Below, one piece after another: positions 5,871 to 21,913 of a DNA stretch of 64,000 nt. Numbering within the stretch: position 1 is the first letter of the stretch; each line of letters opens with the position of its first letter. Under the pieces are notes generated by a model. The model was not told the DNA's origin and did no database searches. It saw only the letters and a list, made by a program, of their open reading frames with translations. Source of the stretch: an uncultured Clostridia bacterium (lineage in GTDB: Bacteria > Bacillota > Clostridia > Lachnospirales > CAMZNU01). The DNA lies in the NCBI GenBank assembly GCA_947313885.1, contig CAMZNU010000012.1, positions 1 through 64,000 on the forward strand, in the 5' to 3' direction. The position numbers were made by a program, and so were the translations under genes.

Positions 5871-6753
5871 CGGTGTAATAAATATAAAAAAAGAAAAGGG
5901 ATATACGTCCCATGATGTTGTAGCTTGTGTAAGAAAAATTATAGGCAAAAAAATAAAAGTAGGGCATACAGGTACACTAGACCCAGAAGCCACAGGGGTG
6001 TTACCAGTGTGCGTAGGTAGATGCACAAAACTTTCAGATAGAATAATGAGTAACGATAAAGTTTATATTGGTAAGTTAAAATTAGGAATTAAAACAGATA
6101 CTCAAGATATATGGGGTAAAGTTTTAGAAACTGCAGATGTAGACGTATTAGAAAAAGATATTTATGAAGTAGTGAAAAGTTTCAAAGGTATTCAACAACA
6201 GTTACCACCGATGTATTCAGCGATAAAAATAAATGGTAAAAAATTATACGAGTTGGCAAGAGAAGGTAAAGAAATAGAACGAAAAAAGAGGAAAATAGAA
6301 ATAAAAGATATAGAAGTTTTAAATATAGAAAAAGATGAAATAGAAATAAAAGTTAAATGTAGTAAAGGTACTTATATTCGAAGTTTATTTACAGATATAA
6401 GTGAAAAACTAGGAACTATAGGAACGATGAGTGAGCTTAAAAGAATAAAAACAGGTGTGTATAAAATCGAGAATTCCATTACCCTTGATGAGTTAAAAAA
6501 GTTAAACGAAAACAATCATATAGAAGATGGAATATTATCATTAGAGAAAATATTAGAGAGTTATGAATTTTTAAAAGCACCAAGCAAATGTAATAAGTAT
6601 CTTTACAATGGAAATAAGGTGAGCATAAACTATTTTAGTGAGAAGTTAGAAAATAAACGAGAATATGTTATAGTAGATTGCAATGACATAATAATGGGAA
6701 TATATATAGTTATAGGAGAATTATTAGTTCCTGTTATAATGTTAAAAAACTAG
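5854..6753 (+). CDS. truB: tRNA pseudouridine(55) synthase
   Basis: TruB (299 aa) forms pseudouridine at position 55 of the tRNA T-loop. The catalytic aspartate is D43 in the motif GTLDPEATG. Other conserved parts are GYTSHDVV, the QLPPMYSAIKINGKKLYE stretch and the KCSKGTYIRSL loop. A C-terminal PUA-like part follows. The ATG at 5854 lies within the end of nrnA and is preceded by GTGGTGG. The gene is followed by ribF after 10 nt, the usual neighbour. Confidence 0.95.
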   Translation: MTKTINGVINIKKEKGYTSHDVVACVRKIIGKKIKVGHTGTLDPEATGVLPVCVGRCTKLSDRIMSNDKVYIGKLKLGIKTDTQDIWGKVLETADVDVLEKDIYEVVKSFKGIQQQLPPMYSAIKINGKKLYELAREGKEIERKKRKIEIKDIEVLNIEKDEIEIKVKCSKGTYIRSLFTDISEKLGTIGTMSELKRIKTGVYKIENSITLDELKKLNENNHIEDGILSLEKILESYEFLKAPSKCNKYLYNGNKVSINYFSEKLENKREYVIVDCNDIIMGIYIVIGELLVPVIMLKN

Positions 6754-12985: not shown

Positions 12986-13014
12986 TTGACAAATAAGTAG
13001 GAAAAGTTTATAGT
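12986..13014 (+). promoter_or_regulatory. sigma-A-type promoter of the redox/ynj-like unit
   Basis: Consensus TTGACA (12986-12991), a 17-bp spacer and TATAGT (13009-13014, 5 of 6) make the best promoter in the window. An overlapping TATAAT lies at 13014-13019 but at 22-bp spacing. The leader to the first ATG (13093) is about 70 nt. No riboswitch-like structure was recognised in it. Confidence 0.75.
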
Positions 13015-13092
13015 ATAATTATAATTAAATGTAAATAAAATATAGTAAAGTTTTAAAAACTATTGTTAAACATATAACAAATGGAGGTTAAT

Positions 13093-14874
13093 ATGAAGCA
13101 TAACGATGTTGTAAATAGTATAGCAAAGGATATTGCGGAAAATTGTCAAGGTGCATATGATGCGTATTGTCAATCTACCTGCCCTATGCATACAGATGCC
13201 ATAGGCTATGTCAATTTGATTGGCGAAGGCAAAGGTGAAGAAGCATTACTTAAAATTAGAGAAAAATTATTTTTACCAGGTACACTAGGTAGAATTTGTG
13301 CACACCCTTGTGAAAGCGAGTGTAAAAGAAATACAGAGTATAAACAACCTATATCGATAGCTATGTTAAAAAGATACGCAACGGATAAATTTGACGATCC
13401 TAAATTATGGGATTTAACAAAGAAAACAAGCACGGGTAAAAAAGTGGCAATAATAGGTGCAGGACCAGCGGGAGCACAAGCTAGTATTGAGTTAGCGAGA
13501 GAAGGACATAAAGTAACAATATTTGAAAAGCTAAATGTTGTTGGTGGTATGATGCACGTTGGAATACCAGAATATAGACTACCAAGAAACATAATAAATC
13601 ATGAATATACATATCTAGAAAAATTAGGTGTCGAAATAAAACTAGGTGTTGAAATAGGAAAAGATATAAAATTTAATGAATTGACAGATGGGTATGATGC
13701 TGTAATTGTTGCAAATGGGGCTCACAAAGGAAATAAAATACCTACAAAAGGTGATGATGCAACGGGAATAACTACAGCGGCAGAATACTTAAGAGAAATT
13801 GCACTAACACATAATAGTGAGATAGCAGGTAAAAGTGTATTAGTAATAGGTGGTGGAGATGTTGCTATGGATTGTGCAAGATCATCATTTAGAGTAGGTG
13901 CATCGACAGTAAATTTAGTATCACTAGAAAAAGAAAAAGATTTACCAGCTAGTCACCATGAGCAAGTTGGAGCAAAAGAAGAAGATGTAATATTTAATTG
14001 TGGATACGGCACTACAGAAATTATAAGTGAAGATGGAAAAGTAACAGGTGTTAAATTAGTTGAATGTGAAAGAATATTTGATGATTCAGGGAATTTCAAC
14101 CCAAGTTACACTGAAAAAACATTAGAAATTTCTTGTGACACTATAGTATTTGCAACAGGTCAAATAGTAGAAGATGCAACAGAAGGAATAGTTAAGCAAG
14201 GAAGAGGTGGAAGATACGAAAAAAATAACGATACTATGGAAACAAGTGTTAAAAATGTTTTTGTAGCAGGAGATGTAGCAGGAAGCAATACAGTAATAGA
14301 AGCTATGGCGTTAGGAAGAAAAGCAGGATTATCAGTTGATAGATATTTAAAAGGTGAAAGTTTAATAGAGGGACGTGATTTTGTTAAAGAAGGTTCATTC
14401 AAAACTAAACTAGACTTACCATTACCAGAAGGTCATAAAGATGAGTTAAGACTAGAAGGTGAAATGTTAGATGGTAAAATAAGAAAAGTTACATTCAAAG
14501 AATGTGATGCAGGATTAACAGATGATAATGCATTAAAAGAAGCACAGAGATGTTTTAAATGTGAATGTAAAAAATGTTTACCAGAATGTATAATGTTAAC
14601 AGAATATTCAGAATATCCAGGAGATTTATTTGCAAAATTCTTAGAAACAGGTAATTTTGATCCATTAGTAGCATATTCATGTAATATGTGTAACCAATGT
14701 ACGTTAGTTTGTCCAGAAGAATTTGATTTTGCAAAATTCTTTGGTGCTATAAGAAAAGATATGGTTAAGGCCAACTCAGGAAATTCACCACTAAAAGGTC
14801 ATAATGCAATAAATATACACCAAAAATTAGGATTTTCTAAATTATTTACTACAAAAAATAAAGGAGGAAAATAA
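13093..14874 (+). CDS. FAD-dependent GltD-type oxidoreductase with C-terminal HdrC-like Fe-S domain
   Basis: The product is a 593-aa cytoplasmic flavoprotein. The N-terminal Fer4_20-type domain (about 1-110) has Cys motifs CQGAYDAYCQSTCP and CAHPCESECKR, as in glutamate synthase small subunit and dihydropyrimidine dehydrogenase. The FAD site is IGAGPAGAQA (about residue 120) and the NAD(P) site is VIGGGDVAMDC (about 256). The last 110 residues hold two cysteine groups, CFKCECKKC and CNMCNQCTLVCPEEF, the latter a canonical [4Fe-4S] motif. This resembles HdrC-type electron carriers. The next gene is HdrB-like, so electrons probably pass from NAD(P)H through FAD and Fe-S to it. No glutamate synthase large subunit is nearby. 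ATG 13081 lies on the ribosome site GGAGG, so ATG 13093 is the start. The substrate is unknown. Confidence 0.85.
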   Translation: MKHNDVVNSIAKDIAENCQGAYDAYCQSTCPMHTDAIGYVNLIGEGKGEEALLKIREKLFLPGTLGRICAHPCESECKRNTEYKQPISIAMLKRYATDKFDDPKLWDLTKKTSTGKKVAIIGAGPAGAQASIELAREGHKVTIFEKLNVVGGMMHVGIPEYRLPRNIINHEYTYLEKLGVEIKLGVEIGKDIKFNELTDGYDAVIVANGAHKGNKIPTKGDDATGITTAAEYLREIALTHNSEIAGKSVLVIGGGDVAMDCARSSFRVGASTVNLVSLEKEKDLPASHHEQVGAKEEDVIFNCGYGTTEIISEDGKVTGVKLVECERIFDDSGNFNPSYTEKTLEISCDTIVFATGQIVEDATEGIVKQGRGGRYEKNNDTMETSVKNVFVAGDVAGSNTVIEAMALGRKAGLSVDRYLKGESLIEGRDFVKEGSFKTKLDLPLPEGHKDELRLEGEMLDGKIRKVTFKECDAGLTDDNALKEAQRCFKCECKKCLPECIMLTEYSEYPGDLFAKFLETGNFDPLVAYSCNMCNQCTLVCPEEFDFAKFFGAIRKDMVKANSGNSPLKGHNAINIHQKLGFSKLFTTKNKGGK

Positions 14875-14876
14875 AT

Positions 14877-15644
14877 ATGAGTAGAAAAGGGTTTATGCCA
14901 GGATGTTCATTACCATCATACAGTCCTATCGGCATTGAAAAAACAGTTAAGTACTTAAAAAGTCATTATCCCGAATTATCAGGTATTCAAAAATGTTGCG
15001 GTAAACCTACTAAAGCGTTAGGTCAAGTTGATAAATTTGAAGAGAGATTTGGAAGTTTATTAGCGGACATAAAAGCTTGTGAAGTAGATGAGATGATAGT
15101 AGCATGTCAAAGTTGCATGAATGTATTAAAAGATTCGGAAGAATTTAAAACAACATCATTGTGGGCATTGATGCCAAAATTAGGATTACCAAAAGAAGTA
15201 ATAGGAAAAGCAAAAAACAGTGATGTAGTATTTTCTATTCATGATTCTTGTTCAGTTAGAGGAATGTCAGATATCCACGATGGCATTAGATGGATATTAA
15301 ATGAATTAGGCTATAAAACTATGGAGCCAGAAAAAACAAGAGAAACTACAAGATGTTGTGGATTTGGCGGGATGATAGTACCTGTAAATCAGGAGTTAGC
15401 AGAAAAAGTAATGAAAAGAAGAGTATCAGATTTCCCAACAGAACATGTAGTAACATATTGTGCAGCATGTAGACAGTCTATAACATTAGGCGATGGTAAA
15501 GCATGGCACATACTTGATTTGATTTGGGGCGATGTAGTAATGAAGGGTTCAGAACCACCAGAGGATACACTATCATCACCAGTAAAAGCATGGGTAAATA
15601 GATATAAATCAAAAGGTGCTATTAAAAAAGCTATCAACGGATAA
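14877..15644 (+). CDS. HdrB-like (Fe-S)-binding protein with two CCG domains
   Basis: The product is a 255-aa protein with two complete cysteine-rich CCG domains. The first is C10-x29-CC(40-41)-x35-C77xxC80. The second starts at HDSC and runs C-x34-CC-x33-CAAC. This spacing matches the noncubane [4Fe-4S] cluster motif of heterodisulfide reductase HdrB. By family the protein would reduce a disulfide, or a similar acceptor, with electrons from the FAD/Fe-S partner encoded 2 nt upstream. No membrane segment is present. The acceptor here is unknown. Other relatives are the CCG subunits of glycolate and lactate oxidases, but the adjacent partner lacks their FAD_binding_4 domain. Confidence 0.85.
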   Translation: MSRKGFMPGCSLPSYSPIGIEKTVKYLKSHYPELSGIQKCCGKPTKALGQVDKFEERFGSLLADIKACEVDEMIVACQSCMNVLKDSEEFKTTSLWALMPKLGLPKEVIGKAKNSDVVFSIHDSCSVRGMSDIHDGIRWILNELGYKTMEPEKTRETTRCCGFGGMIVPVNQELAEKVMKRRVSDFPTEHVVTYCAACRQSITLGDGKAWHILDLIWGDVVMKGSEPPEDTLSSPVKAWVNRYKSKGAIKKAING

Positions 15645-15656
15645 TTGGAGGAAACA

Positions 15657-16349
15657 ATGAGTAAAAAAGAAAATAAAAAAATGAGCATTCAAAAAATGGG
15701 ACTTATAGTAATTTTAATGATCGTGCTAGGGTTTACAGCTTACAAAACAGGATTTATTGATTTTGTAACAGATATTAATGCTATGCAAGAATTTTTCAAA
15801 GGATTAGGAATTGTTGGATACGGAGTGTACATATTATTATTTACAGTAGTAGCTGTTTTCATGTTGCCAGCATCTGTTATTACAATGGTTGCAGGAATAA
15901 CATTTGGGCCAGTGTTAGGCGGGATTTTAGCATTAGTAGGTTCTACAATAGGTGGAACAATAGCATTCATAATTGCAAAGTATGTAGCTAGAGATAAAAT
16001 AATACAAAAATTTGAAGGTAATAAAATATTTTCTAAAATAGAAAAAGGTGTTGAAGAAAATGGTTCAAGTTTTTTAATACTAACAAGATTAGTTCCAATA
16101 TTCCCGTATAACGTACAAAATTATGCATATGGAGTAACTAGTATGAAAACAGGCACATTTTTCATGTGGTCATTACTTTGCATGGCACCAGGTGCATTTA
16201 TATATGCATACATGGCAGGAGACATAGTTACTAACGGTTTATCAGTAGGTATATTAATAAAATTTGCTGGTGCAGGTTTGATATTATTTTTAATATCACT
16301 AATACCGAAATATATAGCTAAGAAAAAAGGAATAAACTTAAACGATTAA
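15657..16349 (+). CDS. TVP38/TMEM64 (VTT/DedA superfamily) membrane protein
   Basis: A 230-aa integral membrane protein with about five to six hydrophobic segments. Family features are the VAGITFGPVLGGILALVGS stretch with Gly-rich re-entrant helix, and the later LTRLVPIFPYNVQNYAYG, the usual F/GxRxxPxxP-like motif of VTT proteins. E. coli YdjX and YdjZ belong to this family and lie beside ynjABCDEF. VTT/DedA proteins are linked to lipid scrambling or transport; the substrate here is unknown. The in-frame TTG 15645 overlaps the GGAGG ribosome site, so ATG 15657 is the start. Confidence 0.85.
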   Translation: MSKKENKKMSIQKMGLIVILMIVLGFTAYKTGFIDFVTDINAMQEFFKGLGIVGYGVYILLFTVVAVFMLPASVITMVAGITFGPVLGGILALVGSTIGGTIAFIIAKYVARDKIIQKFEGNKIFSKIEKGVEENGSSFLILTRLVPIFPYNVQNYAYGVTSMKTGTFFMWSLLCMAPGAFIYAYMAGDIVTNGLSVGILIKFAGAGLILFLISLIPKYIAKKKGINLND

Positions 16350-16391
16350 GAAATAAATGCAGTTATTATTATTATTATAAGGAGATTTAAA

Positions 16392-17438
16392 ATGAAGAAA
16401 AAAATTATGAGTGTTGTATTTTTAGCAATAGCAACGATGTCATTAGCATCATGTGGTAAAAAAGTAGAAGTTGATAATGATGCACAAACAGTAAAAATAG
16501 ATGAGTATGTAAATTCAGACGCATTTATATCAGTATCAGAATTAAATGAAAAACTAAATGGAGACAATGCTCCAATAGTAATAGGAACAATAGATAAATC
16601 AAAAGCGTTACCAGGAACAGTAGCCGCAAATAAAATAGATGGTGCATATTTAGTTTGGAGACCGAATTACTCAGGTAATGGTTCAGCAGAATCTATAACA
16701 GATGAAATAAATGGATTTAGAACATCACAAGAAAACATGGAAACTCTTATGTCTAAAATAGGAGCAGAGGCAGATTCAGAAATAGTTGTGTATTCAGCTA
16801 ATTCCCATCATGATTCTACTAGATTATATTGGCAAATAAAATTATTAGGACATGAAAATGTCAAAGTATTAGATGGTGGTATTAATGCATGGGTAGGTTC
16901 TGGAATGGAAACAGGAAAAGGAACAAGAATAGAAGATGTAGAAATGCAAACATCATATAAAGCTAAAGATTATGACCCAGAAAAATATTCAGCATCAACG
17001 GAAATGGTTGTAGAAGCTTTAGAAAATCCAGATGAGTGGGTAGTAATAGATACTCGTGGATTAGGAGAATTTGAAGGAAAAGATTTATTAGGTGGTGCAT
17101 CTGGAAAAGGTGGATTACTAGGAGCTGTACATATAGGATGGACAGATGCATTAACAGAAGATGGATTATTAAAAACTAAATCAGAATTAGAAGAAGTATA
17201 TGGAGATTTAAAAGATAAAAAAGTTATAGCTTTTTGTCAATCAGGAGTTAGATCAGCACATACGTACACAGTATTAAAAGAAGCATTAGGATTAGATGAA
17301 GTTTATAATTATGATGGTTCTTGGATAGAATGGTCATATATAGCATCAACAGTAAGCGATGGTAAAGTAGATGAAAACCTTAAAGAATCAGTGTTAGGAT
17401 TAACTACAAATTGGACAGATAATGGTAAAATAAAGTAA
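16392..17438 (+). CDS. ynjE: rhodanese-domain lipoprotein, YnjE-like thiosulfate sulfurtransferase
   Basis: A 348-aa exported lipoprotein with a signal peptide ending in the lipobox LASC (Cys about residue 21). Two rhodanese folds are seen. In the first (about 45-175) the active-site loop reads VVYSANSHHDS, with no cysteine, so it should be inactive. The second (about 195-320) has an intact loop FCQSGVRSAH with catalytic Cys282. E. coli YnjE is a periplasmic sulfurtransferase of tandem rhodanese domains encoded beside ynjBCD and ynjF, the same company as here. The likely role is sulfane-sulfur transfer on the outer face of the membrane. The donor and acceptor are unknown. Confidence 0.82.
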   Translation: MKKKIMSVVFLAIATMSLASCGKKVEVDNDAQTVKIDEYVNSDAFISVSELNEKLNGDNAPIVIGTIDKSKALPGTVAANKIDGAYLVWRPNYSGNGSAESITDEINGFRTSQENMETLMSKIGAEADSEIVVYSANSHHDSTRLYWQIKLLGHENVKVLDGGINAWVGSGMETGKGTRIEDVEMQTSYKAKDYDPEKYSASTEMVVEALENPDEWVVIDTRGLGEFEGKDLLGGASGKGGLLGAVHIGWTDALTEDGLLKTKSELEEVYGDLKDKKVIAFCQSGVRSAHTYTVLKEALGLDEVYNYDGSWIEWSYIASTVSDGKVDENLKESVLGLTTNWTDNGKIK

Positions 17439-17465
17439 CATAAAAAATAAATATTTGGAGGAAAT

Positions 17466-18062
17466 ATGTTAGATTCAAAGGCTAGAAAATATGTACAACC
17501 AATAATAGAAAAAACAGCTAATATGTTTATTAAGTTAAATATATCGGCAATACAGGTTACATTAATTGCCCTATTTATAGGGATTATCTCTAGCATTATT
17601 TTAATGTTAGGTTATGAAATATTAGCGATAATTTTTTTGTGGTTATCAGGATATTTAGATGCAATCGATGGCACTGTAGCTAGAAAAACAAACACACAGT
17701 CGGAGTTAGGTGGTTTTTTAGATATAGTTTCAGATAGAGTAGTGGAAGTTTGCATGCTTATGGCTCTAGTTTATATAACACCTAGTATAGCGATAGAGGT
17801 TATATTTGTTTTAGGTGGAATAATTATATCTATGACAATTTTTTTATTGTCTTCATCTATCATAGACAAAAGAAGTGATAAAATGTTTTATTATCAAACG
17901 GGGTTAGCAGAAAGAACAGAAGGCTTTTTAATGATAACCCTTGGAATAATATTTAAAGGGTATTGCTCTATGATAATGATTATATTTGCAATGATTATAT
18001 TATTTACAGCAGTGCAAAGATTTAGAGAAGTTGTTAAATATTTAAATTTAGAGGAGAGATAA
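17466..18062 (+). CDS. ynjF: CDP-alcohol phosphatidyltransferase family protein, YnjF-like
   Basis: The product is a 198-aa membrane protein with the full CDP-alcohol phosphotransferase motif DG(x2)AR(x8)G(x3)D(x3)D: D68 G69, A72 R73, G82, D86 and D90. These enzymes move a phosphatidyl or other phospho-alcohol group from a CDP-linked donor to an alcohol. About five to six transmembrane helices are predicted. The acceptor cannot be read from the sequence. E. coli ynjF is next to ynjE, as here. A GGAGG site precedes the ATG, and the ABC binding-protein gene starts 2 nt after its stop. Confidence 0.85.
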   Translation: MLDSKARKYVQPIIEKTANMFIKLNISAIQVTLIALFIGIISSIILMLGYEILAIIFLWLSGYLDAIDGTVARKTNTQSELGGFLDIVSDRVVEVCMLMALVYITPSIAIEVIFVLGGIIISMTIFLLSSSIIDKRSDKMFYYQTGLAERTEGFLMITLGIIFKGYCSMIMIIFAMIILFTAVQRFREVVKYLNLEER

Positions 18063-18064
18063 AA

Positions 18065-19231
18065 ATGAAAAAAATAATTACTGTACTATTAAGTGTTTTA
18101 CTTCTATCATCTTGTGGTAAAGAAGGAGTAGCAAAAGAAGAAGTAGCAAAAGAAGTTGTAAGATTTTATGGTTGGGGCGGAGATAGTAATGTTAATAACT
18201 ATCTTGATGACTATATAGCACCATTAGTAAAAGAAAAGCATAATATTGATTTTATTAGAGTTCCTATGAACATAGATGAAATACTACTTAAGCTTACAAA
18301 TGAAAAAGAAGCTGGAGTAGATAGTGGAGATATCGATATTATGTGGATAAATGGTGAAAATTTTTATAATGCTAAAAAAATAGGATTATTATCAGAGCCT
18401 TTTACAACTAGCATTGAAAATTACAGCAAAAATATAGATTTAAATGCCGAGTTTGCAAATATGGATTTTAATACGCCAATTGAGGGGTTAGAAGTGCCAT
18501 GGGGATTAGCGAGACTTGTTTTAATTGGCAATACTAATAAAATAGATGAGTTACCAAAAAATAGTATGGAATTATTAGACTTAGTAAAAGAAAATAAAGG
18601 TATGATGACGTACCCAGCATTACCAGACTTTACAGGTAGTGCATTTGTAAGAATGATAATGAACGATGTGTTAGGTGAGGAAGTCATGGCAAATTTAGGA
18701 TACGACAAAGAAGAAATAAGAATTAAATTAATGCCAGCCTTTGATTACCTAAATGAACTAGAAAAATATTTATGGATGAATGGAGAAACTTATCCAAAAG
18801 ATACAGGAGTAATAAATAAAATGTATAGTGATGGTCAACTACTATTCACATTGTCATATACGGCATTATTGGCAGATAGAAAAGTTTTAGAAGGTGAGTT
18901 TGAAGAAGGTACAAAAGCATTTATTTTTGAAAATGGTACATTAGGAAATGCGCACTATTTAGCAAAACCTTTTAATGTATCTAACAGTGAAGGTGCTAAT
19001 AAAGTAATAAATGAATTAATTAGCTTTGAAGCGCAAATTAAAAAAATGGATGTAAATGGTTGGGGCGATTTGGCTGTGCTAGATATGGACAAGCTAAATG
19101 ATGAAGAAAAAGAAATATTTAAAAATACAAGTGGTTCAGATATTTTAGAATTAGAAACATATTCAGAAGTGGATGCAAAGCAAATAGCGATTATTGAAGA
19201 GTTATGGGAGGAAGAAGTATTAAGAAAATAG
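18065..19231 (+). CDS. ynjB: ABC transporter substrate-binding lipoprotein, YnjB-like
   Basis: The 388-aa binding protein of the ABC importer encoded just downstream. A signal peptide ends in the lipobox LSSC (Cys about residue 17), so it is membrane-anchored. The mature part matches what I know of E. coli YnjB in many blocks: FYGWGGDSNVNNYLD, DIMWINGENF, VPWGLARL, TYPALPDFTGSAFV, YLWMNGETYP and VNGWGDLAVLD. This is much closer than to polyamine or iron binders, although the fold is of the same general class. The substrate of YnjB-type importers is not established. Its 3' end overlaps the next gene. Confidence 0.88.
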   Translation: MKKIITVLLSVLLLSSCGKEGVAKEEVAKEVVRFYGWGGDSNVNNYLDDYIAPLVKEKHNIDFIRVPMNIDEILLKLTNEKEAGVDSGDIDIMWINGENFYNAKKIGLLSEPFTTSIENYSKNIDLNAEFANMDFNTPIEGLEVPWGLARLVLIGNTNKIDELPKNSMELLDLVKENKGMMTYPALPDFTGSAFVRMIMNDVLGEEVMANLGYDKEEIRIKLMPAFDYLNELEKYLWMNGETYPKDTGVINKMYSDGQLLFTLSYTALLADRKVLEGEFEEGTKAFIFENGTLGNAHYLAKPFNVSNSEGANKVINELISFEAQIKKMDVNGWGDLAVLDMDKLNDEEKEIFKNTSGSDILELETYSEVDAKQIAIIEELWEEEVLRK

Positions 19232-20094
19232 AAAGTAAGTATAGGCCATATATATTATTGATACCATTCATAATATTTATAATTTTAATGTTAGGATCAA
19301 CTAGCATGATAGAGCAAAGTTTAGGATATAACAACCAAGAAGGGATTAGTAGTATAACGTTTAAGTACTATGAAGAAATAATATTTACTAAAGTATTTTT
19401 GGAATCTATAGTTTATACGATATATATATCTGTAGTCCCGACATTAATTTCTTTAATTGTCGGGATATATATGGGTATAGCTGTGCATTTTAACATAAAG
19501 AGAAAAAATAGGCTAAATAATATAATACAAATTCCTATTATAATACCATATACTGTTTATATTTTTTGCATCATATTAATACTTATGCAAACAGGTATTG
19601 TTTCAAGAAGTGTAATGAATCTAAATATAATTGATACAGCAAATGATTTTCCTTTGCTAATATATGATAAATTTGGGGTAGGCATTATTATGGTGTATGT
19701 TTTAAAACAAGTACCATTTGTATATTTTATAATAATATCGTCTTTAAGTAATATGGATAGAAAGTATATAGATGTAGCATTAAATTTAGGTAGTAGTAAA
19801 ATACAAGTTTTGCGAGAAATAGTATTACCGTATTTAAGAAATAGTATAATGACAGCTTTCTTTATAGTTTTTGCTTTTAATTTTGGTTCTTTCGAAGCCC
19901 CTTTTTTATTGGGAAATCCAAAATATAATACATTACCTGTTTTAAGTTATAAATATTTTATAAGTTCGGATATTGATAAACGATCGTATTCAATGGTTAT
20001 AAATACTATAATGATAATAGCAGTAGTAATTTTGTTACATATATATATAAAATATAATGAAAGGAAAAATAGGAGGAACTATGAAAAAAGATAA
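19204..20094 (+). CDS. ABC transporter permease, YnjC-like N-terminal half
   Basis: A 296-aa inner-membrane permease with about six helices. The coupling-helix EAA-type motif is DVALNLGSSKIQVLREIVLP near residue 195. E. coli YnjC is a single long protein equivalent to two permeases; here the two halves are separate genes, this being the first. The frame opens at ATG 19204, which has only a weak GAAGAG upstream. GGGAGGAAG at 19206-19214 would better serve a start near 19219, an ATT codon. The start is therefore uncertain by about five codons. It overlaps the binding-protein gene by 28 nt. Confidence 0.8.
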   Translation: MGGRSIKKIESKYRPYILLIPFIIFIILMLGSTSMIEQSLGYNNQEGISSITFKYYEEIIFTKVFLESIVYTIYISVVPTLISLIVGIYMGIAVHFNIKRKNRLNNIIQIPIIIPYTVYIFCIILILMQTGIVSRSVMNLNIIDTANDFPLLIYDKFGVGIIMVYVLKQVPFVYFIIISSLSNMDRKYIDVALNLGSSKIQVLREIVLPYLRNSIMTAFFIVFAFNFGSFEAPFLLGNPKYNTLPVLSYKYFISSDIDKRSYSMVINTIMIIAVVILLHIYIKYNERKNRRNYEKR

Positions 20095-20866
20095 AATAAT
20101 CACCAAATTTATTATTAGTCTATTTTTCATGATTTGTATTTTACCATTAATAATAATTTCATTATTTATGTTTGTAGATAAATGGGTTTATCCAAACATA
20201 TTTCCAAGTACATATACGTTAAAATATTTATTATCAGTTATACAGAGCAAAGAGTTGCCAAAAGCTATGATAACATCTATTATAGTTGCTGTTATGTCAG
20301 CTGTAATAAGTGTAATAATATCTTATCCAACAGGTAAGGCATTAGCACATTACAACTTTAAAGGGAAACACGTTATTAGTATTTTAATACTTATACCGTT
20401 AATAGTGTCACCTTTGGTTTTGGTGTCATCTAGTCATATAAATTTAATAAAATATAATTTACATAGCACGTTATTAGGCGTGAGTTTAATACATACGATA
20501 TTTATATTGCCGTATACTATAAGAATTTTTAATGATAGGTTTGAAGAAATAGGTGTTGAGTATGAACTGCAAGGATATACATTAGGTGGTAATGTAATTA
20601 GCACATTTTTTTTAGTGACATTACCGCTATTAAGAGTAAGTGTAATGTTATCATTTAGTTTAGGCGTTATAATATCATTGGGACAATATCTAACTACTTT
20701 AATAATAGGTGGTGGTAGGGTAATGACTATATCGATTATATTAGTACCATACATACAGTATAGTGAATATCAATTAGCATCGATATATAGTTTTATTTTA
20801 ATAGCATTAACAATAATAAGCTATACGTTAATAGCTAAACTGTATAAAAACCACTTGGAATTTTAG
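20081..20866 (+). CDS. ABC transporter permease, YnjC-like C-terminal half
   Basis: A 261-aa permease with about six transmembrane helices and an EAA-type loop (YTLGGNVISTFFLVTLPLL near residue 170). It pairs with the preceding permease to form the channel of the importer. An in-frame ATG at 20057 exists, but ATG 20081 follows AGGAGG and was chosen. It overlaps the previous gene by 14 nt, so the two are probably translated together. The ATPase gene starts 9 nt downstream. Confidence 0.83.
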   Translation: MKKDKIITKFIISLFFMICILPLIIISLFMFVDKWVYPNIFPSTYTLKYLLSVIQSKELPKAMITSIIVAVMSAVISVIISYPTGKALAHYNFKGKHVISILILIPLIVSPLVLVSSSHINLIKYNLHSTLLGVSLIHTIFILPYTIRIFNDRFEEIGVEYELQGYTLGGNVISTFFLVTLPLLRVSVMLSFSLGVIISLGQYLTTLIIGGGRVMTISIILVPYIQYSEYQLASIYSFILIALTIISYTLIAKLYKNHLEF

Positions 20867-20875
20867 GAGGCTAAA

Positions 20876-21880
20876 GTGTCAGAAGTAAAAATAATTAATT
20901 TAACAAAATCAATAGAAGGAAAATATATATTAAGTAATGTATCTATAGAATTAGAAGAGGGCGAATTTTTATCATTGCTAGGTCCATCAGGATGTGGCAA
21001 AACAACGTTATTGAATGCGATAGCTGGTATAGTTGCTATTGATAGTGGTGAGATATTTTTCGGAAATATTGATGTAACAAACACGCCAACAAACAAAAGA
21101 AAAGCAACAATAGTATTCCAAGACTATGCATTATTTCCACATATGACAGTGTATGATAATATAGCATTTGGTTTAAAAATGAAAAAGCTAAGTAAAGAAA
21201 TCATAAAAAAAGAAGTTATGGAGTTATTAGAAGTAATAGAATTAAGTGATAAGATCAATAATTATCCAAAAGAATTGTCAGGCGGGCAAAAGCAAAGAGT
21301 GGCAATAGCAAGAGCAATAGCTATAAAACCTATGGTTCTTTTATTAGACGAACCATTTTCAGGATTAGATAATAGTTTAAAAAACACTATGCATAAATTT
21401 ATAATGAATATAACTAAAAAGTATTCAATAACTACAATAATGGTAACTCATGACAAGAATGAAGCTTTTAAGATGTCTAATAAAATAGCTATAATGTTAA
21501 ATGGCGAAATAAAACAAATAGATTATAGTAAAGATATTTATAAAAATATTAGCGATATAAAGGTTGTTGAATTTTTAGAGGAATTCAATATAATAAAGGG
21601 TAAAATAATAAATAATAATCTTGTTACGCAAATAGGGAGTTTTGAAATTAAAGAAAAACAAAATAAATATTTAGTTTTTAAATATGATCAAGTGCATATA
21701 AAATATAGTAAAGATAAAAATGAAATGGTCGCAGAAATAATAGAAAAATACTATATGGGTAACTACACAACATACATTTTGATGTATAACATGGAACGAA
21801 TACAAATAAATATTGCAGATGATAAATTTGATGTAGGAGATAAAGTAAACATAGAAATTAAAGACTATAAAATAATTTAA
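20876..21880 (+). CDS. ynjD: ABC transporter ATP-binding protein, YnjD-like
   Basis: The 334-aa ATPase of the importer. The motifs in order are Walker A GPSGCGKTT, Q-loop VFQDYALFPHMT, signature LSGGQKQR, Walker B VLLLDEPFSGLD and H-loop MVTHDKNEA. Residues from about 235 form a C-terminal extension of the TOBE/MOI kind found in the polyamine, iron and sulfate importer ATPases. The E. coli YnjD is shorter, so this extension is a difference. It starts with GTG after an AGGAGG site, and a strong terminator follows directly. Confidence 0.88.
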   Translation: MSEVKIINLTKSIEGKYILSNVSIELEEGEFLSLLGPSGCGKTTLLNAIAGIVAIDSGEIFFGNIDVTNTPTNKRKATIVFQDYALFPHMTVYDNIAFGLKMKKLSKEIIKKEVMELLEVIELSDKINNYPKELSGGQKQRVAIARAIAIKPMVLLLDEPFSGLDNSLKNTMHKFIMNITKKYSITTIMVTHDKNEAFKMSNKIAIMLNGEIKQIDYSKDIYKNISDIKVVEFLEEFNIIKGKIINNNLVTQIGSFEIKEKQNKYLVFKYDQVHIKYSKDKNEMVAEIIEKYYMGNYTTYILMYNMERIQINIADDKFDVGDKVNIEIKDYKII

Positions 21881-21913
21881 AAATAAGAGTTGATTACAAC
21901 TCTTATTTTTTTT
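21881..21913 (+). terminator. terminator of the redox/ynj-like unit
   Basis: AATAAGAGTTG (21882-21892), loop ATTA, CAACTCTTATT (21897-21907), then a T run to 21913. It is a perfect 11-bp stem that begins immediately after the ATPase stop codon. Confidence 0.9.

Follow-up and report, generated by a model that had tools for sequence, protein, structure and literature searches.

What is the function of a nine-gene set in an uncultured Clostridia bacterium (Lachnospirales, CAMZNU01) whose products are in good part homologous to those of the E. coli ydjXYZ-ynjABCDEF region? The genes lie, all on the + strand, at positions 13093-21880 of a window of 64,000 nucleotides (assembly GCA_947313885.1, contig CAMZNU010000012.1), at the place named by an original prediction made from the sequence alone. 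They encode a flavin adenine dinucleotide (FAD) flavoprotein, a heterodisulfide reductase B (HdrB)-like protein, a VTT membrane protein, a rhodanese lipoprotein, a cytidine diphosphate (CDP)-alcohol phosphatidyltransferase and a YnjBCD-type ATP-binding cassette (ABC) importer. Our answer, tentative and held with slightly less than even confidence, is that the nine genes form one functional unit for the anaerobic handling of sulfur compounds, in which a sulfur-sulfur (S-S) reductase driven by reduced nicotinamide adenine dinucleotide (phosphate) (NAD(P)H) would be coupled to the making and flipping of a lipid head group.

The cassette is a single unit, present in no fewer than four bacterial phyla. 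When an alignment of six HdrB proteins was searched against a species-level genome collection, it yielded 60 named loci, with E. coli-type relatives in other Gammaproteobacteria left out of the counts. The full set is found on one strand within 8.6-12.8 kb in 40 of them, distributed over Clostridia, Bacilli (Salipaludibacillus, Alkalihalobacillus, Salisediminibacterium), Vibrio, Aliivibrio, Grimontia, Enterovibrio and one spirochaete (Spirochaetota); of the other 20 loci, many run into a contig end or are short of one block. Aliivibrio fischeri is one of the species that carry the cassette. Three further loci (L045, L047, L048) have precisely the gene order of the window, and Fusobacteria (Ilyobacter, Cetobacterium) have the cassette on large plasmids, FAD protein and HdrB being fused there. 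At two Aliivibrio loci and one of Vibrio metoecus (L069, L077, L088) ynjB is apparently missing, with other cassette genes present. In a phylum sample of 300 genomes, YnjB above its curated cut-off was detected in 26 and HdrB (E < 1e-55) in 18; 17 of the 18 HdrB-positive genomes also contain YnjB (Fisher 2e-20), and in 14 of these 17 the two genes share a contig and are no more than 10 kb apart. The question posed alongside the original prediction, whether the HdrB and FAD genes recur with ynjBCDEF, is hence answered by a clear yes, from the 60 loci as well as from the 300-genome sample.

Direct BLAST of the window proteins against the annotated E. coli K-12 region confirmed the proposed homology to the YdjX/YnjB-F group. 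The VTT protein (TVP38/DedA superfamily, 15657-16349) matches YdjX with 38% identity (2e-55), the solute-binding lipoprotein (18065-19231) matches YnjB with 30% over 361 amino acids (1e-57), and the ABC ATPase (20876-21880, GTG start), the CDP-alcohol phosphatidyltransferase (17466-18062) and the rhodanese (16392-17438) match YnjD (6e-37), YnjF (1e-18) and YnjE (5e-12), respectively. Two separate ABC permeases, identified by domain matches, correspond to the N half (19204-20094) and the C half (20081-20866) of the fused E. coli YnjC. Membership of the binding protein in the YnjB family is likewise borne out by model NF008633 (355.6 bits, curated cut-off 203), with an SBP_bac_8 domain as well, and its structure is predicted with a local distance difference test score (pLDDT) of 90. 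Homologues of YdjX and YnjB to YnjF are thus adjacent in the window and in E. coli (ydjXYZ-ynjABCD, ynjE, ynjF), where ynjF is on the opposite strand. By the same BLAST comparison, YdjY, YdjZ and YnjA have no counterpart in the window cassette, as foreseen for YnjA, and the flavoprotein and HdrB have none in the E. coli K-12 region.

The locus had been described as a Gram-positive counterpart of the E. coli region, extended by an Hdr-like pair. This has the direction wrong, as the FAD/HdrB core is common to Vibrionaceae, Fusobacteria and the spirochaete. Because FAD and HdrB genes recur with YnjB across loci and genomes, they are a core part of the unit, and E. coli is a variant in which this core is lacking and YdjY, YdjZ and YnjA take its place. 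One locus in the phylum of the window (L175) resembles the E. coli form in encoding YdjY and YdjZ. FNR is a direct activator of ydjXYZ-ynjABCD and ynjE in E. coli (PMC3688515), and a genetic-interaction screen placed ynjABCDEFI in a group with Suf genes (PMC3930520). A literature search, with most subscription journals outside its reach, found no account of the unit and no paper that deals with the function of ynjBCD, with rhodanese alongside TIGR04282/TIGR04283 sets, or with CDP-alcohol transferase, VTT, rhodanese and Hdr proteins in combination.

The redox pair is encoded by the first two genes. The flavoprotein (13093-14874) contains an N-terminal Fer4_20 domain, Pyr_redox_2 and Fer4_17 (Pfam/NCBIfam scan), the C-terminal part being an HdrC-like [4Fe-4S] dicluster. 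Its nine C-terminal cysteines (residues 491-544) are 100% conserved in 71 sequences, and six N-terminal cysteines are conserved to 97%. The HdrB-like protein (14877-15644) comprises two CCG domains with two complete CCG motifs, and all ten cysteines of the non-cubane clusters are retained in every one of 67 sequences. A pair of complete CCG motifs is characteristic of the disulfide-cleaving non-cubane clusters of HdrB, and from these residues we infer that the cassette HdrB probably does so too. The combination of NAD(P)H/FAD domain, dicluster and ten-cysteine CCG pair is shared with the heterodisulfide reductase HdrA/HdrB/HdrC and with the fused flavoprotein of model NF045663 ('diclust_near_Sec'), and a similarly fused FAD-HdrB form of about 850 amino acids also occurs in cassette loci. 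The two separate window proteins reach 238 and 190 bits against the NF045663 cut-off of 530 and, unlike cassette FAD/HdrB genes, the NF045663-like genes found here sit in another conserved neighbourhood, with a protein of about 910 amino acids upstream and several conserved genes downstream of the fused gene (L166-L174). A selenium link of the flavoprotein, suggested by the model name, was dropped, since these relatives in their other neighbourhood are uninformative on the cassette. A protein family of about 110-130 amino acids recurs beside FAD/HdrB at six loci (L058, L060, L063, L064, L070, L096), and the one member scanned had no Pfam match. Three of these loci (L058, L060, L064) harbor FAD-HdrB without VTT and rhodanese, and at L060 it adjoins a CGGC protein and a sulfonate-type ABC transporter.

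The link to sulfur rests mainly on regulation in Vibrionaceae and on YedE/TsuA-type partners. In Vibrionaceae, genes of a TtrS/TtrR-like two-component system are located divergently beside the cassette. The sensor carries a Phosphonate-bd domain and scores 361 bits with the TtrS model (NF040750, cut-off 750), and the LuxR-type regulator scores 201 bits with the TtrR model (NF040749, cut-off 290). Because both scores are below the curated cut-offs, we count the pair as relatives of TtrS/TtrR and not as proven TtrS/TtrR. The binding site of TtrR in V. parahaemolyticus, GTGG-N4-CCAC, has been defined by experiment, in work that also describes a second two-component system (05905-05910) activated by TtrR (PMC11293645). 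Exactly this box, as part of a longer palindrome (ATTGTGG-N4-CCACAAT), is present in all 23 Vibrionaceae intergenic regions that separate sensor and cassette, compared with 2.9% of equal-length windows elsewhere in the Vibrionaceae loci; the 23 genomes are related and hence not independent, but the rest of the region varies. Sensor domain, regulator type and DNA box are common to these loci and to the tetrathionate sensor systems of Salmonella and Vibrio, a further difference besides the scores being that no ttrBCA genes lie beside the cassette regulators. V. fischeri and V. harveyi are among the species that do not share ttr genes (PMC11293645).

A pair of genes encoding a split Sulf_transp protein (PF04143) is located inside or adjoining the cassette in nine loci, and a LysR gene is found near the pair in several. 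PF04143 is the family of the thiosulfate transporter TsuA/YeeE and the selenium transporter YedE/FdhT, from which the cassette-linked form differs by being split into two genes. The window cassette itself is without such a pair, and two PF04143 genes are located elsewhere in its genome. At L162 (4828-5579), two apparent CGGC-domain proteins, judged from sequence, are encoded between the split pair and a fused FAD-HdrB gene. A LytS/LytR-like pair beside the Salipaludibacillus loci was taken as local and not conserved.

The lipid side of the unit is represented by the CDP-alcohol transferase and its replacements. The PF01066 motif D-x2-D-G-x2-A-R-x8-G-x3-D-x3-D is complete in the window transferase, and the catalytic residues D65, D68, G69, A72, R73, G82, D86 and D90 are all invariant. 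Its nearest solved relatives, by sequence and predicted fold, are phosphatidylinositol-phosphate synthases and IPCT-DIPPS: the fold (template modelling score 0.73-0.79) and the catalytic motif are shared with the mycobacterial synthase and the archaeal IPCT-DIPPS, at an identity of only about 18-22%. The protein stays below the cut-offs of the archaetidyl- and phosphatidylinositol-phosphate synthase models (NF040950, 100 of 180 bits; NF045883, 61 of 170 bits). Among 70 loci with YnjB, 46 contain the transferase, whereas in 15 it is replaced by some or all of a nucleoside hydrolase (NucH), an APH-type kinase and glycosyltransferases of TIGR04282 and TIGR04283; eight have neither, several owing to contig ends. 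No real case of transferase and glycosyl module together was found in the 70 loci, the apparent double at L182 being a weak match of a 404 amino acid glycosyltransferase of different make. Mapped on a quick YnjB tree, the transferase/module label changes six times, with at least four changes forced by well-supported branches. The simplest reading is that both modules would serve one purpose, to equip a lipid or other acceptor with a polar head group.

How might these parts act together? The compound handled would be sulfane sulfur, an oxyanion of sulfur such as thiosulfate or tetrathionate, or a related organic compound. The rhodanese lipoprotein (lipobox LASC; two rhodanese domains by Pfam/NCBIfam, with the active loop CQSGVRS in domain two and its Cys282 96% conserved), located outside the membrane, may take up or hand on a sulfane sulfur atom. 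In the cytoplasm, electrons from NAD(P)H would reach HdrB by way of the FAD protein and its iron-sulfur dicluster, and the two non-cubane clusters of HdrB would break an S-S bond, possibly of a disulfide, persulfide or polythionate. YnjBCD would import a small charged or phosphorylated solute, and the CDP-alcohol transferase would attach an alcohol-phosphate head group to a phospholipid, which the VTT protein may carry across the membrane. The speculative working idea of the original prediction, import of a sulfur-, selenium- or alcohol-containing compound with a lipid head-group step, survives in part. Its sulfur component gains from the TtrS/TtrR-like regulators with exact boxes and from the YedE/TsuA-type partners, and selenium loses ground in Vibrionaceae, where the cassette genomes are without SelD; the proposed lipid step draws support from the family assignment and from the repeated exchange with the glycosyl module.

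Several observations weigh against a role in sulfur handling. The cassette is patchy, being present in 20 of 151 Vibrionaceae genomes, and two Aliivibrio loci retain the other genes without a recognisable ynjB. TtrS/TtrR-like regulators are confined to Vibrionaceae, with other regulators elsewhere. In a structure search, YnjB resembled binders of aminoethylphosphonate, ferric iron, polyamines, thiamine and sugar phosphates and no known thiosulfate binder, a likeness that gives the expected fold class but no ligand. The E. coli rhodanese YnjE has poor activity with thiosulfate and mercaptopyruvate (PMC10215317), which disfavours a simple thiosulfate rhodanese. Finally, in Gram-positives the set tracks SelD, which is encoded in 13 of 13 Gram-positive genomes with named loci, Bacilli included. 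This last point speaks for selenium acquisition or selenite handling, in which a YedE-type transporter would import, the rhodanese would act as selenium carrier and FAD-HdrB would reduce thiol-bound selenium to feed SelD. Of the 26 genomes in the phylum sample with YnjB, 24 have SelD above cut-off, compared with 199 of 300 overall (p 0.002), and so have all 18 with HdrB (p 6e-4); the LysR protein comes near a 'selenium metabolism-associated' model (235 bits, cut-off 250) and the YedE halves are near YedE/FdhT. SelD is also encoded in the window genome, by a gene carrying an in-frame TGA. This protein is frequent in the phylum in any case, however, and it is absent from 24 genomes that have the cassette or at least its core, 23 of them of Vibrionaceae and one of Pseudovibrio; in the Vibrionaceae, the cassette regulators are of the tetrathionate type. 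SelD had at first appeared to be a decisive sign (29 of 32), and this was weakened by the 199/300 background and the SelD-less Vibrionaceae; we therefore consider a selenium function unlikely, at roughly one chance in several. The selD gene of the window genome (G000:C9:114535-115443) contains one in-frame TGA, probably encoding selenocysteine, in a genome of only 1.55 Mb.

A unit mainly for solute import and membrane lipid synthesis, with YnjBCD supplying an unusual phospholipid or glycolipid head group and the redox proteins and rhodanese serving envelope thiol homeostasis, appears to us just as improbable as the selenium function. It would fit the proximity of the transferase to inositol-phosphate lipid synthases, its repeated swap with the kinase/nucleotidyltransferase/glycosyltransferase set, the place of VTT proteins in a lipid-transporter superfamily and the apparent glycerophosphodiesterase genes, recognised by eye, that adjoin distant YnjB relatives, but it leaves the TtrS/TtrR-like regulators with exact boxes and the YedE/TsuA-type partners unexplained. 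The distant YnjB-like transporters in question are those of L039, L040 and L041, whose neighbours appear to be glycerophosphodiester phosphodiesterases. Sulfur and lipid could also be joined in a lipid-borne sulfur shuttle, a proposal that gives every gene a task and that we consider quite improbable: the transferase, or the kinase/nucleotidyltransferase/glycosyltransferase set, would place an imported or nucleoside-derived head group on a lipid, the rhodanese would load it with sulfane sulfur, VTT would flip it inward and FAD-HdrB would reduce it. Support of molybdopterin synthesis, based on the YnjE annotation 'molybdopterin synthase sulfurtransferase', is very improbable. Genes for molybdoenzymes of the dimethyl sulfoxide reductase family do lie beside some loci (L093, L184) and molybdenum cofactor genes around L180, yet MoaA above cut-off is absent from the window genome (95.8% complete) and from five other YnjB-positive genomes, so that this reading is largely refuted for the window. 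At L180, YnjBCD, an APH kinase and a nucleoside hydrolase are found within a molybdate-transport and molybdopterin-synthesis cluster. Equally remote is arsenosugar or organoarsenical metabolism, read from the names of TIGR04282 and TIGR04283. Both glycosyltransferases are above cut-off in the alternative module, and in Salisediminibacterium halotolerans an ArrA/ArrB-like molybdoenzyme operon (L093:2757-7886; ArrA 1065 bits, cut-off 1600) lies directly upstream of the cassette, but ArsS (TIGR04167) reached its cut-off in 0 of 18 genomes searched and the TIGR04282/TIGR04283 module is not in the window.

We retain anaerobic sulfur handling as the proposed function. In the window, the cassette is framed by expression signals. 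A sigma-70-type promoter (TTGACA-17-TATAGT, 12986-13014, +) matches 11 of 12 consensus bases and is the top scorer in the region; as the 93 sigma-70-like matches there equal chance expectation, its rank is the evidence for it. An intrinsic terminator (21881-21913, +) consists of a hairpin folding at -14.2 kcal/mol (z -4.5) and the T run after it. The postulated nine-gene unit between one promoter and one terminator hence stands, based on sequence, promoter rank and hairpin folding. For the flavoprotein gene, the start at 13093 was preferred over that of the longest open reading frame at 13081, since GGAGG directly precedes the ATG at 13093; for the second permease, whose longest open reading frame begins at 20057, the ATG at 20081 is the likelier start. 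An Rfam scan identified no RNA families in the window.

New in this analysis are the TtrS/TtrR-like system of Vibrionaceae with its ttrR boxes, the YedE/TsuA-type partners, the exchange of transferase and glycosyl module and the invariant HdrB cysteines. With a glycosyl module repeatedly taking the place of a phospholipid-head-group enzyme, what counts in the lipid or other acceptor would be the head group and not its linkage. Decades of annotation have given the E. coli genes near ynjB no established function; they now have a place in a cross-phylum unit to which a redox core is added. Together with the sulfur-type control site in all 23 Vibrionaceae loci examined, this allows the function to be put to the test in Aliivibrio fischeri, a convenient host, using named inducers.

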